This document shows, in pieces, positions 57,351 through 64,000 of a stretch of 64,000 nt of DNA. The stretch comes from Synechococcus sp. BL107. Its GTDB lineage: Bacteria > Cyanobacteriota > Cyanobacteriia > PCC-6307 > Cyanobiaceae. Under the pieces are notes generated by a model. That model worked only from the letters and a program-made list of their open reading frames with translations. It did no database searches and was not told the origin of the DNA. The stretch spans positions 1,616,827-1,680,826 of the forward strand of contig NZ_DS022298.1 of assembly GCF_000153805.1 (NCBI RefSeq). The letters run 5' to 3'. The position numbers and the translations under genes were made by a program. How positions within the stretch are numbered: position 1 is the first letter of the stretch; every line of letters begins with the position of its first letter.

Positions 57351-58385
57351 ATGCAATCCTATGGAAATCCATCAGTCAGCTATGACTGGTGGGCAGGAAA
57401 TTCAGGAGTAGCCAAGCGATCTGGCTCATTTATTGCAGCGCATGCGGCACATGCTGGCCTCATCATGTTCTGGGCTGGTGCATTCACTCTCTTTGAATTG
57501 GCTCGCTACAGCAGCGCATTGCCTATGGGTGACCAAGGATTAATTTTGCTGCCCCATATGGCGTCTTTAGGCTTAGGCCTCGATGCTAATGGAACAATTG
57601 CAAATACAGAGCCATACATTGCTATTGCTGCCTTTCATTTGGTGTCTTCAGCAGTTTTGGGAGCCGCTGGAATTTGGCATACGCTAAGAGCACCAAAAGA
57701 CTTGTCTGAAGCAGAGGGACGAGCACAAAAATTCCACTTTGAATGGGACGACGCTAAAAAACTCACCTTTATCCTTGGCCACCATCTGATCTTTCTTGGA
57801 TTGGGTGTTATCGCATTCGTTGAATGGGCCAAACACCATGGCATCTATGACACTGCAATAGGTGCCGTTCGCCAAGTTGAGCCCAATATAGATCTAGGAA
57901 TGGTCTGGGGTTACCAGACAAATTTTCTCTCAATCAATAGTCTTGAGGACGTGATGGGAGGACACGCCGTTCTGGCATTTATCCTCACTATTGGTGGGGT
58001 CTGGCATATCATTTCAAGTCCATTTGGGCCATTCAAGAAGATTTTGATCTATTCCGGAGAAGCCATCCTGTCTTATTCATTAGCAGGCATCGCTCTAATG
58101 GGATTTGTTACTAGTATCTGGTGTGCACAGAACACTCTGATCTATCCAGTTGAGTTTTACGGAGAGGCACTGAAACTCAATTTCGCATTCTCTCCATACT
58201 TCAGTGACACTGCTGCAGTCTTAAACAATGGACATACAGCAAGGGCCTGGTTAGCTAATACACATTTCTATCTTGCCTTCTTCTTCCTTCAAGGCCATTT
58301 TTGGCATGCACTACGCAGTATGGGATTCAACTTTAAAAGTGTATCTCAGGCGTTAGAAACGATGGATACGGCAAAGGTAAGCTAA
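57351..58385 (+). CDS. isiA: Iron-stress chlorophyll-binding protein IsiA (CP43')
   Basis: IsiA is a six-helix chlorophyll protein that forms antenna rings around photosystem I in iron starvation and also dissipates energy. The ATG at 57351 gives MQSYGNPSVSYDWWAGNSGV, the usual family start, followed by FIAAHAAHAGLIMFWAGAF. Chlorophyll-ligating His residues recur in the helices (AAFHLVSS, LGHHLIFL, GGHAVLAF, TIGGVWHII, FLQGHFWHALRSMGF). At about 344 residues it lacks the large lumenal loop of CP43. The flavodoxin gene isiB is not adjacent. A strong terminator follows. Confidence 0.93.
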   Translation: MQSYGNPSVSYDWWAGNSGVAKRSGSFIAAHAAHAGLIMFWAGAFTLFELARYSSALPMGDQGLILLPHMASLGLGLDANGTIANTEPYIAIAAFHLVSSAVLGAAGIWHTLRAPKDLSEAEGRAQKFHFEWDDAKKLTFILGHHLIFLGLGVIAFVEWAKHHGIYDTAIGAVRQVEPNIDLGMVWGYQTNFLSINSLEDVMGGHAVLAFILTIGGVWHIISSPFGPFKKILIYSGEAILSYSLAGIALMGFVTSIWCAQNTLIYPVEFYGEALKLNFAFSPYFSDTAAVLNNGHTARAWLANTHFYLAFFFLQGHFWHALRSMGFNFKSVSQALETMDTAKVS

Positions 58386-58530: not shown

Positions 58531-58743
58531 TCACAACTGATCAGGTTTTGATTCTTTCGATTTGATCAGTGGCAAACAATCAAGACGAAGGCCTCCAACT
58601 ATTGAAATGAACAATGGTGTAAAAACCATTGCGACGACCAGAAGCCCGATAGGTTGAATCGTTGATTCATGACGAGCGAGAATCAACACCCCAACACACA
58701 TAGATGTGTATGCAATCGAAAATAGAAATACTTTCCAATTCAT
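58531..58743 (-). CDS. Small two-span membrane protein (70 aa)
   Basis: Two hydrophobic segments are visible (VFLFSIAYTSMCVGVLILA and, after ARHESTIQP, IGLLVVAMVFTPLFISIVGG), then a basic tail. The start is 10 bases after the stop of the PsbY-like gene on the same strand, so the two probably form an operon. The family is unknown. It may be a thylakoid protein given the neighbours. Confidence 0.65.
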   Translation of the reverse strand: MNWKVFLFSIAYTSMCVGVLILARHESTIQPIGLLVVAMVFTPLFISIVGGLRLDCLPLIKSKESKPDQL

Positions 58744-58753
58744 TGTATCGTTA

Positions 58754-58897
58754 TCAGTTAGAAGAATTTTGCTTGTACTGTTGAGTAGCTAACTGAATTT
58801 GTCCAAGAGCTGCTCGGCCAATGTTGAACCCAGCCCAACCCAGTGCTAAAAAAATAGGTGCAAAATCAAGAAGGATTCTAAAGTCCAACAACGACAC
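58754..58897 (-). CDS. psbY: Probable photosystem II protein PsbY
   Basis: A short frame (up to 47 residues) reads DFRILLDFAPIFLALGWAGF, then NIGRAALGQIQLATQQYK. This pattern, a single helix with ALGWAGFNI and a Q-rich basic tail, is that of PsbY, a peripheral PSII subunit near cytochrome b559. There is no ATG; GTG at 58897 or TTG at 58891/58888 would start it. It was too short to be found by length alone. Assignment is by remembered family pattern. Confidence 0.6.
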   Translation of the reverse strand: MSLLDFRILLDFAPIFLALGWAGFNIGRAALGQIQLATQQYKQNSSN

Positions 58898-59055
58898 CAA
58901 AAGAAAGTACAAGTATCACAATTTAAACGCAAGAACTCATATCTTTAGCTACAAATAAAGCAATACCGAAGATCTTTTAGAGGAAGAATATGATTCAAGC
59001 TTGGAGAACATTTAGTACAGTACAATAATTCGAGAGTGTAGTAAAAAATAAAACA

Positions 59056-59355
59056 ATGAGTTATTTGCAATGCAACAACCGAGGATCACTAGAGTTTGTT
59101 CAATGGTGTAGTGAGCTTTTCGAGATGATGGTTGAACCGAACTGGGATTACTTTGTTAATGAGCCACTTGACAGTGGAACGATTCGATTCGAAACAAAAA
59201 CAGAGCGGGCACTTTTTGCTCGTGTGATTGCTGGAGAAGCAAATTGGATGGAACAGAATTCATTAGATCGATTAAACACTTGGAGGCTTGCAAAATATGA
59301 CCTAGAGGCCTTTCTTGATGGGCGCCGTGCTGCTAGAGCAAGAGCAAGTCTATGA
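59056..59355 (+). CDS. Hypothetical protein (99 aa)
   Basis: The protein is soluble and helical with many Trp and Glu residues: SLEFVQWCSELFEMM, PNWDYFVNEPLDSGT, FETKTERALFARVIAG and a basic end ARARASL. I do not recognise the family. It starts with ATG after an AT-rich leader and has good codon use compared with its surroundings, so it is probably real. Confidence 0.62.
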   Translation: MSYLQCNNRGSLEFVQWCSELFEMMVEPNWDYFVNEPLDSGTIRFETKTERALFARVIAGEANWMEQNSLDRLNTWRLAKYDLEAFLDGRRAARARASL

Positions 59356-59669: not shown

Positions 59670-59807
59670 ATGTACCAAGACTATACCGCTATTTTACTTA
59701 TGTTGCTCACGGCGATACCACTAGCCGTTGTTGCAGCTACAATATTCTTCTACATACGGAACAATGACAGGAAAACCCCACTAAAGAGAGACGATTTTCA
59801 TCGCTAA
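59670..59807 (+). CDS. Small single-span membrane protein (45 aa)
   Basis: The frame reads MYQDYTAILLMLLTAIPLAV, then a continuing hydrophobic stretch to FFYIRNND and a basic, polar tail ending RDDFHR. The layout, a short acidic N-terminus, one helix and a positively charged tail, matches small thylakoid subunits in general, but I cannot name it. It lies between the 99-residue gene and the linker gene. Confidence 0.55.
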   Translation: MYQDYTAILLMLLTAIPLAVVAATIFFYIRNNDRKTPLKRDDFHR

Positions 59808-60045: not shown

Positions 60046-60798
60046 CTAAGAATTAAACATAGCATCAAAAATAGATAGAATAATTACGACGCTTGAAATA
60101 ATGCCAATGGATAGTGATACTCTCCAGATTATCAATGACCTCCCTTTAGGTTCGTTGTAAATTAAATTGTCAACAGATGTGCGCGGTCTGTTTGCAACAT
60201 TAAATGCCTCGATAGACATCATAATGTTATCTTGAATGAGACGATCTCTCCAACTTTCACCATACCTGGGCAATCGCTGATAGATAGGAATCTCTCCGAT
60301 TGCTTTACCTGGAAGAGTCCTATTAACTTGTCGCGGCACATCATCGTAACCAAACCTTTGCATATACTCATCACTATCTAAAATGGTATCAACGAAATAA
60401 TTAAATCCACGATCTGCGATCAAAATTGACCAAGAAAGCCTTTCACGAATGCTATAAATAGGCCGCCCTAAAACTCTTCCAATCACCTGTTCAACAAGTC
60501 GATTATTATTATTGCAAGCAACATAACCCCGATAGAAACGATCAGATAGCAGTAAGCCTCTAATGAAATCTCTTGTTTCAATACTGCCACTTTTAAACTG
60601 TGACTCAAGAAATAAATCTCGGTCAGAGTTCATTGAGTGAAAAAATATTTGCCGATAACATTTTTCTATTAATTCTATAGAGGAATTCAAAGATGTGTCT
60701 TTTCGAGAATCGTTGTTGAAAGAATAGATCGTTTCTACTCGAGAATTTTGAGTCTTATAGTTAAAATCCAATCTATTGCTCGACGAAAGATTTCCCAT
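60046..60798 (-). CDS. Phycobilisome rod linker (CpcG/CpcL type) with C-terminal membrane segment
   Basis: The 250 residues hold a PBS linker domain at about 45-160: CYRQIFFHSMNSDRDLFLES, FKSGSIETRDFIRGLLLSD, VIGRVLGRPIYSIRERLSW, DSDEYMQRFGYDDVPRQ. The ending VPRQVNR matches rod-core linkers. Instead of a core-binding tail, the last 25 residues are a hydrophobic helix (VSLSIGIISSVVIILSIFD). In CpcL (CpcG2) of Synechocystis and Anabaena such a helix anchors a rod-only phycobilisome to the membrane for photosystem I. The same job is inferred here. The N-terminal 40 residues are Ser/Asn-rich and unlike standard CpcG. Confidence 0.82.
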   Translation of the reverse strand: MGNLSSSNRLDFNYKTQNSRVETIYSFNNDSRKDTSLNSSIELIEKCYRQIFFHSMNSDRDLFLESQFKSGSIETRDFIRGLLLSDRFYRGYVACNNNNRLVEQVIGRVLGRPIYSIRERLSWSILIADRGFNYFVDTILDSDEYMQRFGYDDVPRQVNRTLPGKAIGEIPIYQRLPRYGESWRDRLIQDNIMMSIEAFNVANRPRTSVDNLIYNEPKGRSLIIWRVSLSIGIISSVVIILSIFDAMFNS

Positions 60799-61091: not shown

Positions 61092-61403
61092 ATGGCACTT
61101 TCCGGCTTCGAAATCGCTACAGGTGGTATCACGTCAATTCCAGTTACGGCGGCTCTTATATTTCTAAGCTATAAAGCTTTTGGTGAAAAAAACTTAGATA
61201 CTACCAAGTATAAGCCCAAAAAACCTGTACAAACTAAGAAAGCTGGTCCTTCAAAAGAGACGTCTGAATCCGAAAAAGCTGATGTTTCTAAAAAGGATAC
61301 AGATACAAATAAGAGCGCGACAGAGAGAGAATCAGCAACTATTAAGAAAAGCCCTAATGACAAAACTGTTAACTCTAGGAAGTCAATAGATATAAAAGAT
61401 TAA
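61092..61403 (+). CDS. Hypothetical membrane-anchored Lys-rich protein (103 aa)
   Basis: One hydrophobic segment (ITSIPVTAALIFLSYKAFG) near the N-terminus is followed by about 70 residues of low-complexity Lys/Ser/Asp/Thr sequence, probably disordered and exposed to the cytoplasm. The same frame continues for 19 more codons of similar composition after the TAA (61404-61463), so the tail may have been shortened by a stop mutation. No family is known to me. Confidence 0.55.
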   Translation: MALSGFEIATGGITSIPVTAALIFLSYKAFGEKNLDTTKYKPKKPVQTKKAGPSKETSESEKADVSKKDTDTNKSATERESATIKKSPNDKTVNSRKSIDIKD

Positions 61404-61764: not shown

Positions 61765-62127
61765 ATGAATTTTCTGAACGTTGTTATTGGTTCTTCTTTG
61801 GCAGCCTGGGTTCTGATTGGAATTAGAATGCATGCTTCATGGATTATGGATACTTTTCTAAGAGAAACAGAAAAAATTGATTTTCAACAATATGAGATTG
61901 ATAATAATGGATATAATTCAATTTCAGTTGACAAGAATCTTAAGCCACAAAAACTAGTTGTCTACGGATATTGGGGAAACCTAGACGAAAGCTTAGGAGA
62001 TCAAGAGAAGAAAAAAAGAAGTCCGATTGTCTTTAGATTAGTCAATGCAAGTTTGATTTCATTTACCGCGATCTTTGTTCTAATTATTTGCAGCAAGGGT
62101 TTCTTCTCTAGCATTGGTGTTTATTGA
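61765..62127 (+). CDS. Hypothetical two-span membrane protein (120 aa)
   Basis: A first hydrophobic segment (FLNVVIGSSLAAWVLIGI) is followed by a polar middle of about 65 residues with many Asp, Asn and Lys, and a second segment (SLISFTAIFVLIICSKGFF). A soluble loop between two helices would face one side of the membrane. I recognise no family. Codon use is AT-biased like its surroundings. Confidence 0.55.
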   Translation: MNFLNVVIGSSLAAWVLIGIRMHASWIMDTFLRETEKIDFQQYEIDNNGYNSISVDKNLKPQKLVVYGYWGNLDESLGDQEKKKRSPIVFRLVNASLISFTAIFVLIICSKGFFSSIGVY

Positions 62128-62706: not shown

Positions 62707-62844
62707 ATGGACGACGCGAAATTCGGTTTTTCCTCTTTTGCCGAACAGTGGAATGGCCGTCTGGCAATGATGGGTTTCATCATTGGCCTCGGTACGGAGC
62801 TGCTGACTGGCCAGAGCATCCTGCATCAGATTGGACTTGGCTAA
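62707..62844 (+). CDS. hli: High-light-inducible protein (Hli/Scp family), 45 aa
   Basis: The short frame reads MDDAKFGFSSFAEQWNGRLA, then MMGFIIGLGTELLTGQS and ends HQIGLG. It contains the Hli/light-harvesting signature (ExxNGRxAMxGF) with Glu and Asn/Arg for chlorophyll binding. Hli proteins are single-helix pigment proteins that protect photosystems in high light and other stress. The gene is too short to be detected by length but is unmistakable. The next gene starts four bases after its stop, and a terminator ends the pair. Confidence 0.93.
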   Translation: MDDAKFGFSSFAEQWNGRLAMMGFIIGLGTELLTGQSILHQIGLG

Positions 62845-62848
62845 ATAC

Positions 62849-63001
62849 ATGCAGGATCCCGACGTTTGGGTTCCAGAGAACAGTGCTGGCTATTACCGAC
62901 TCTTTTTCTTTGGATCATTCATCGCAGGGCTTGGGGTGGGAGCCAACACGGTTGGCCACTATCTTTGGGTATCGATTCAAGCCATGAACAACTACTTCTA
63001 G
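62849..63001 (+). CDS. Small membrane protein (50 aa) coupled to hli, unknown family
   Basis: Starting four bases after the hli stop, the frame reads MQDPDVWVPENSAGYYRLFF, then FGSFIAGLGVGANTVGHYLW, and ends MNNYF. The middle is one hydrophobic helix with Gly-rich spacing and a His near its end, which could ligate a pigment. I do not know this family. Tight coupling to hli and the shared terminator downstream suggest it works with the Hli protein. Confidence 0.8.
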   Translation: MQDPDVWVPENSAGYYRLFFFGSFIAGLGVGANTVGHYLWVSIQAMNNYF

Positions 63002-63363: not shown

Positions 63364-63588
63364 TCATGCTTGAATCTTCGAGTGAAACTTATATTTTTTA
63401 CTACAATGTGCCTTAATCGCGAGACATTTTATATCTCGCATAATTGTTTTGGGCGTCATAAATAAATAATCTGCTATTTTCGTGTACGACCAGCCTTGCT
63501 TTCTCAAGGCGACTGCTATGTGTAATCTTTTATACCTCCAGCCCTTTATCGGACCCAAGTGATGCGAAATGGGATTTGAAATTGTCAT
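63364..63588 (-). CDS. Small helix-turn-helix protein (74 aa), putative regulator
   Basis: The ATG at 63588 gives a basic protein whose centre reads LHIAVALRKQGWSYTKIADY, then LFMTPKTIMRDIKCL, which fits a homeodomain-like helix-turn-helix of the transposase/ResA-type (WSYxxIAxxLxxxxxTIxRDIK). The rest is Lys/His-rich. It may regulate the adjacent small genes or be a fragment of a larger DNA-binding protein. It is convergent or divergent with no named partner. Confidence 0.5.
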   Translation of the reverse strand: MTISNPISHHLGPIKGWRYKRLHIAVALRKQGWSYTKIADYLFMTPKTIMRDIKCLAIKAHCSKKYKFHSKIQA

Positions 63589-63796
63589 TGTTAATTCCAA
63601 ACTGTTAACACATTATCTTGATCAGTCCGAATGGCTGATTAATTCCAACAAGCAGGCGCTAATAAAGACCAGAATAATACATCAAACGATACACATAAAC
63701 TGGGTGCTGACAATCGCCAACACAACCCTGGGTGGTATAAAATTATCGCACGAAGAGCAACATAAACATCTATCGATCCTTCTTGCACAACAATAA
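63569..63796 (+). CDS. Possible small protein (75 aa), doubtful
   Basis: The frame overlaps the start of the HTH gene on the other strand and reads as a mixed polar peptide (LLTHYLDQSEWLINSNKQAL, then INWVLTIANTTLGG). There is no known motif. It could be real because it lies just upstream of the ferredoxin gene in the same direction, but a chance frame is as likely. Confidence 0.25.
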   Translation: MGFEIVIVNSKLLTHYLDQSEWLINSNKQALIKTRIIHQTIHINWVLTIANTTLGGIKLSHEEQHKHLSILLAQQ

Positions 63797-63814: not shown

Positions 63815-64000
63815 ATGATGTCTGCTTTCAAGATCACAATGCATACCCCAAAGGGATTGCAAACATTTGAATGTCAGGATGATGAATACATTCTTGATGC
63901 AGCAGAGCAAGCGGGATTCGATATGGCATATTCATGCAGAGCAGGGGCTTGCAGCTCATGTGTTGGAAAAATATTAGAAGGTACAGTCGATCAATCTGAT
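63815..64000 (+). CDS. Second [2Fe-2S] ferredoxin, partial at the right edge
   Basis: The frame starts with a double ATG at 63815 and 63818 and runs off the window. It reads [20 protein letters not shown], then [20 protein letters not shown] and [15 protein letters not shown], giving three of the four cluster cysteines (CX4CX2C). It is clearly a plant-type ferredoxin, but differs from the one at 55302-55586 in about half of the visible positions. In this AT-rich island it may be a stress-specific variant. Confidence 0.9.

Follow-up and report, generated by a model that had tools for sequence, protein, structure and literature searches.

CpcGIII of marine Synechococcus, a predicted membrane-anchored rod linker of CpcL-like design and separate descent, is linked to iron-stress genes in distribution and gene neighborhood

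Overview

We analyzed a 64,000-nucleotide stretch of the Synechococcus sp. BL107 genome (the window) and found that its cpcGIII gene encodes, as judged from sequence comparison, a CpcL-like phycobilisome linker of separate descent that is tied by distribution and linkage to iron-stress genes. CpcGIII probably attaches phycobilin rods directly to the thylakoid membrane in some marine Synechococcus, and the observation that cpcGIII comes and goes with isiA between genomes suggests a rod-type antenna for conditions in which iron and photosystem I (PSI) are scarce. Marine Synechococcus are often iron-limited, and PSI is the costly component there. If a phycobilin antenna goes with isiA, it would offer a specific and testable route for bringing more light to fewer PSI centers, and surveys of iron adaptation that rely on isiA and flavodoxin would overlook a third gene of the set as well as two or more small membrane proteins.

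The cpcGIII gene and its product

The gene and its predicted protein features are as follows.

60046-60798, minus strand: cpcGIII, predicted membrane-anchored rod linker of 250 aa (the open reading frame has exactly this extent and an ATG start; named from the gene set and the lack of linkage to other phycobilisome genes)
60328-60678, minus strand: PF00427 phycobilisome linker domain, aa 41-157 (E-value 5.6e-32)
60067-60135, minus strand: C-terminal membrane helix, aa 222-244, with an IYxxPxG motif just before it (hydropathy, alignment and AlphaFold2)

PF00427 is the single Pfam domain in CpcGIII, in agreement with the rod-core-type linker domain described in an earlier note on this DNA. The top Foldseek matches are CpcG and CpcL chains, including the CpcL chain 8hfq_n, and the closest solved structures of similar length are rod-core linkers and CpcL. 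The dN/dS ratios of 0.05-0.24 among cpcGIII orthologs point to purifying selection. The same note regarded the Ser/Asn-rich N-terminus as unusual, a view that was not sustained: this region contains the QN.RV motif common to nearly all CpcG and CpcL rows of the alignment, the gene has a GC content of 36% (53% for the window), and the N-termini of distant orthologs are not Asn-rich. The Asn-rich N-terminus was thus rejected as a functional novelty.

The 2.285-Mb genome holds 13 PF00427 domains and three CpcG-type proteins, namely CpcGI (L010), which has a soluble tail, CpcGII (L011), which is encoded in the rod cluster, located at roughly 796-814 kb, and also ends in a membrane helix, and the window protein, the third cpcG copy, which is encoded outside the rod and core clusters. 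Since this set matches cpcGI, cpcGII and cpcGIII and the window gene is unlinked to other phycobilisome genes, we identified it as cpcGIII, which the cpcGIII passages of Six et al. 2007 (PMC2246261) describe as a third cpcG copy unlinked to phycobilisome genes. These passages place cpcGIII only in strains BL107, CC9902, CC9311 and CC9605, and mention neither a membrane helix nor an association with isiA. The gene is therefore already known as cpcGIII, and what is new relative to these passages is the membrane anchor and the company of isiA; later naming may exist.

C-terminal membrane helix

The last 30 residues of CpcGIII form a hydrophobic segment, in which the best 19-residue Kyte-Doolittle mean is 2.25 (aa 222-240), and the IYxxPxG motif preceding it is specific to CpcGIII. 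The AlphaFold2 model contains a helix at residues 220-248 with pLDDT values of 79-88 in this block, the mean of the whole model being moderate (65.7). Lys and Arg residues are found before the helix and none after it, which fits the expectation for an N-in topology, thus the linker domain is expected on the cytoplasmic side. The hydrophobic segment is kept in all 17 of the 17 cpcGIII orthologs, and in each of them the helix stands in place of the GFPQ-type core-binding tail of CpcG, which is absent. These results bear out the proposal of the earlier note that a hydrophobic helix replaces the core-binding tail, and the predicted membrane anchoring of CpcGIII is well supported. We further infer that CpcGIII binds rods and assembles them without a core.

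Phylogeny of CpcG-type linkers

In a comparison of 97 CpcG-type proteins, sampled within the genus, across its family and from further cyanobacterial families, we observed a clean split into helix-ended proteins, with a C-terminal mean above 1.5, and hydrophilic-ended proteins, with a mean below 1.0; the tails of CpcGI and freshwater CpcG have hydropathy below 1.0. In the maximum-likelihood tree, the cpcGIII proteins form one clade (support 98/84), which is joined by a protein from genome G057 (100/99), and together they are sister to marine CpcGII (100/99). A split with support of 100/99 separates all of these proteins from CpcGI, freshwater CpcG and the freshwater CpcL-like proteins, the last of which are nested among freshwater CpcG. 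The same grouping was obtained after dropping the C-terminal columns, and the AU test rejected a single clade of all helix-ended linkers (p = 0.017), which lowered the log-likelihood by 53.6. The G057 protein (L031, contig C8) is a long-branch relative with 49% identity that branches next to the cpcGIII clade as its sister; G057 belongs to another genus and also has isiA, isiB and the small membrane protein S103 described below.

CpcGIII shares the design of a linker domain followed by a C-terminal helix with CpcL (CpcG2) of Synechocystis PCC 6803 and Anabaena PCC 7120. In our alignment, R175 of CpcGIII lines up with CpcL R178; most orthologs have Arg at this position, and CpcGII has Gln or Ser. 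However, CpcGIII is without the EQQ insertion of freshwater CpcL, whose residues N55, Q57 and Q58 in the 6803 protein (placed by our own alignment and not against the 6803 sequence itself) contact bilin in the CpcL-phycobilisome structure (PMC10322944). The CpcL red-shift residue P137 is also absent from CpcGIII, although this was given no weight because P137 is variable among freshwater CpcL-like proteins as well. The gene contexts differ too, cpcGIII being found with the isiA set and CpcL with ccaSR or in a cpc operon. The CpcG and CpcGI rod-core linkers have PF00427 and the N-terminal QNxRV motif in common with CpcGIII but, unlike it, end in a hydrophilic core-binding tail. The sister clade CpcGII, encoded in the rod gene cluster, resembles CpcGIII in combining PF00427 with a C-terminal membrane helix and no core-binding tail, whereas it differs in being present in nearly all strains, in not being tied to isiA, and in its anchor, which has conserved E and R residues inside the helix. 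Because the CpcGIII anchor is unlike those of both CpcGII and CpcL, homology does not reveal the partner.

The description of the protein as CpcL-like in the earlier note therefore holds for its design (linker domain, helix, divergent sequence), which the alignment with CpcG and CpcL types confirmed, and not for identity with freshwater CpcL itself. The protein forms a separate clade rather than falling among ordinary CpcG, and its relatives retain the helix. Orthology with freshwater CpcL was rejected on the basis of the separate clade (100/99), the AU test (p 0.017) and the missing EQQ insertion; thus, by the comparisons made here, CpcGIII fits the CpcL design yet is no CpcL ortholog. This points to more than one origin of membrane-anchored rods and to an anchor that can be exchanged between linkers; for other cyanobacteria, earlier work suggested that the helix was gained or lost repeatedly (PMC10053587).

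Genomic linkage to isiA

The neighborhood of cpcGIII in the window contains the following genes.

57351-58385, plus strand: isiA, PSI-associated chlorophyll antenna CP43' (TIGR03041, 1.7e-152; ATG at 57351 chosen from ortholog comparison)
58531-58743, minus strand: S70, small membrane protein conserved in the neighborhood
58754-58912, minus strand: PsbY (PF06298, 3.3e-11)
59056-59355, plus strand: S99, small soluble protein conserved in the neighborhood
59670-59807, plus strand: 45-aa membrane protein with a single segment, conserved in the neighborhood
61092-61403, plus strand: S103, 103 aa, with a membrane segment at the N-terminus and a tail rich in Lys and Ser, divergent neighbor of cpcGIII
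61765-62127, plus strand: S120, 120 aa, with two membrane segments
62707-62844, plus strand: high-light-inducible-type protein (PF00504, 9.6e-4, just under the cut-off), conserved with the next gene
62831-63001, plus strand: 56-aa membrane protein without a Pfam match, conserved beside the high-light-inducible-type gene
63364-63600, minus strand: HTH protein (PF13384, 1.9e-5)
63815-64000, plus strand: 2Fe-2S ferredoxin (PF00111, 7e-15), running beyond the window end

The region from 57 to 63.7 kb has a GC content of 39%, compared with 53% for the window, as expected for an exchangeable islet. The distance between isiA and cpcGIII is 1.7 kb in the window and 1.2-1.7 kb in six genomes, which show two arrangements. 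The two genes lie on opposite strands in G000, G006 and G027, whereas in G020, G022 and G023 they lie on the same strand, with a relative of the window 2Fe-2S ferredoxin between them and with isiB also close. In the latter arrangement the HTH gene is also found beside cpcGIII; lying beside the islet ferredoxin in the window, its product is a candidate local regulator. About ten genomes possess both cpcGIII and isiA as non-adjacent genes. The proximity to isiA reported in the earlier note is thus confirmed, and the association is a conserved pattern among genomes. Outside these two arrangements, a 4Fe-4S ferredoxin gene is located directly downstream of cpcGIII in 11 genomes (L076-L084, L089 and L090), and in seven a further flavodoxin gene, divergent and with about 60% identity to isiB, is found within 2-7 kb.

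Co-occurrence with isiA and small membrane proteins

Among 118 relatives searched, isiA-type genes (at least 82% identity) were identified in 20 genomes and cpcGIII in 18, including the G057 relative. The 19 near-complete members of the genus (at least 98% complete) comprise nine genomes with both genes, three with isiA alone, seven with neither and none with cpcGIII alone (Fisher p 0.003). In two drafts, G011 and G015 (53% and 79% complete), cpcGIII is present and isiA was not detected, which may be explained by incompleteness. Dufresne et al. 2008 (PMC2441476) reported isiA and isiB in BL107, CC9311, CC9605 and CC9902 out of 11 strains; this list is identical to that given for cpcGIII in the passages of Six et al. 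cited above (the same 4 of 11 strains, with a chance of 1/330). On the GlyS tree both traits flip several times, and wherever both change they do so in the same direction. The tree supports three to five phylogenetically independent pairs, none of them in the wrong direction, a number too small for significance in a sign test. Genome G008 (98% complete) possesses isiA, isiB, S103 and S120, and its only CpcG-type match is CpcGI, with none to CpcGII or CpcGIII.

The distribution of S103 coincides with that of isiB and, among near-complete genomes, with that of isiA (12/12 versus 0/7). S103 copies adjoin cpcGIII, isiA or both, except in the G020, G022 and G023 group, where S103 is located elsewhere; several genomes have one copy beside cpcGIII and another beside isiA. 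The distribution of S120 follows that of cpcGIII, with the exceptions of G008, which has S120 without cpcGIII, and G057, which is without S120. No family match was found in NCBIfam, Pfam or PHROGs for S103, S120, S99 and the 45-aa protein.

A scan of the window with a Fur-type consensus gave one weak match, fewer than expected by chance, and a palindromic motif search on isiA promoters, followed by scanning of the cpcGIII and flavodoxin promoters, gave none above background; both are weak methods.

Proposed role and alternative explanations

We propose that the linker domain of CpcGIII would close off a phycocyanin (and phycoerythrin) rod at its base, and that this rod, lacking a core, would be held directly at a complex of the thylakoid membrane by the C-terminal transmembrane helix that stands in place of a core-binding tail. 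The cpcGIII gene would then belong, together with isiA, isiB (flavodoxin), S103 and S120, to an iron-stress accessory set located partly in the exchangeable AT-rich islet. At low iron, with PSI in short supply, the chlorophyll antenna of PSI would be extended by IsiA, which is known to enlarge it under iron stress (PMC8635728), and the phycobilin antenna of PSI by CpcGIII rods. With CpcL, whose rods feed PSI (PMC10322944, PMC12461855), as a precedent and with isiA as a companion gene, the most economical interpretation is that CpcGIII would provide the phycobilin counterpart for PSI or PSI-IsiA. We thus lean, with slightly better than even confidence, towards the view that CpcGIII anchors rods to the membrane as part of an iron-stress antenna set and most likely serves PSI or PSI-IsiA. 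Within this reading, iron regulation of cpcGIII and the PSI or PSI-IsiA partner are the components that we infer; the lack of a detectable shared promoter motif, together with the fact that iron stress usually lowers phycobilisome content (PMC8635728), argues against them. A more elaborate version, which we put forward tentatively, is a mobile iron-stress module in which a CpcGIII rod is mounted on PSI-IsiA with S103 and S120, by an anchor whose origin is separate from that of the freshwater CpcL anchor. If true, such a module would provide PSI with chlorophyll and phycobilin antennae at once.

Alternatively, CpcGIII could be a membrane-anchored, stress-related linker whose rods attach to IsiA aggregates, to PSII or to some other membrane protein and serve storage, quenching or delivery to PSII instead of light harvesting for PSI. 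A different partner is plausible given that the CpcGIII helix is without the internal E and R of CpcGII and that its anchor aligns to the CpcGII-type anchor with a score of 1, against 84 for the phycoerythrin linker described below; PsbY and a high-light-inducible-type protein are also encoded in the islet. We nevertheless consider this explanation rather improbable, because PSI is the complex served by the rod linkers with a membrane helix that have been studied to date (CpcL of Synechocystis and Anabaena; PMC10322944, PMC11165356, PMC12461855). It is unlikely that the association with isiA reflects hitchhiking, with cpcGIII encoding a spare anchored rod linker (for light color or another stress) and residing in exchangeable DNA in which isiA is often present. 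The AT-rich islet, the patchy distribution, the three near-complete genomes with isiA and without cpcGIII and the failure to find a promoter motif common to both genes are in line with hitchhiking, but the co-occurrence persists in G005, G009, G019, G029 and G031, where the genes are far apart, and S103 copies accompany both of them. Finally, given the linker domain common to CpcGIII and CpcG, CpcGIII might act in ordinary phycobilisomes as an alternative rod-core linker whose hydrophobic end is buried; this is very improbable, because the core-binding tail is absent and a hydrophobic helix of ~23 residues with positive-inside charges is found in all orthologs.

Other membrane-anchored linkers

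The helix-ended design is not unique to CpcGIII in this genome, being shared by CpcGII and a phycoerythrin-type linker. According to the passages of Six et al. (PMC2246261), phycobilisomes prepared from the examined strains contained no detectable CpcGII, MpeF or MpeG, although CpcGII had earlier been seen in WH8102. Since CpcGII and MpeF/MpeG-type linkers end in membrane anchors and CpcL enters the Triton layer in Triton-based preparations (PMC12461855), the membrane-anchored linkers of marine Synechococcus may have been missed by the preparation method.

The phycoerythrin-type (MpeF/MpeG-like) rod linker L005 (G000:C1:2199131-2200024, minus strand; 298 aa) is encoded outside the window. Its 45-residue tail aligns without gaps to the membrane anchor of CpcGII (BLOSUM score 84, z >10 versus shuffles), hence L005 is a predicted membrane-anchored phycoerythrin linker, in which the anchor appears as a swappable module. 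Homologs of L005 were found at seven loci (L273-L276, L278, L281 and L282).
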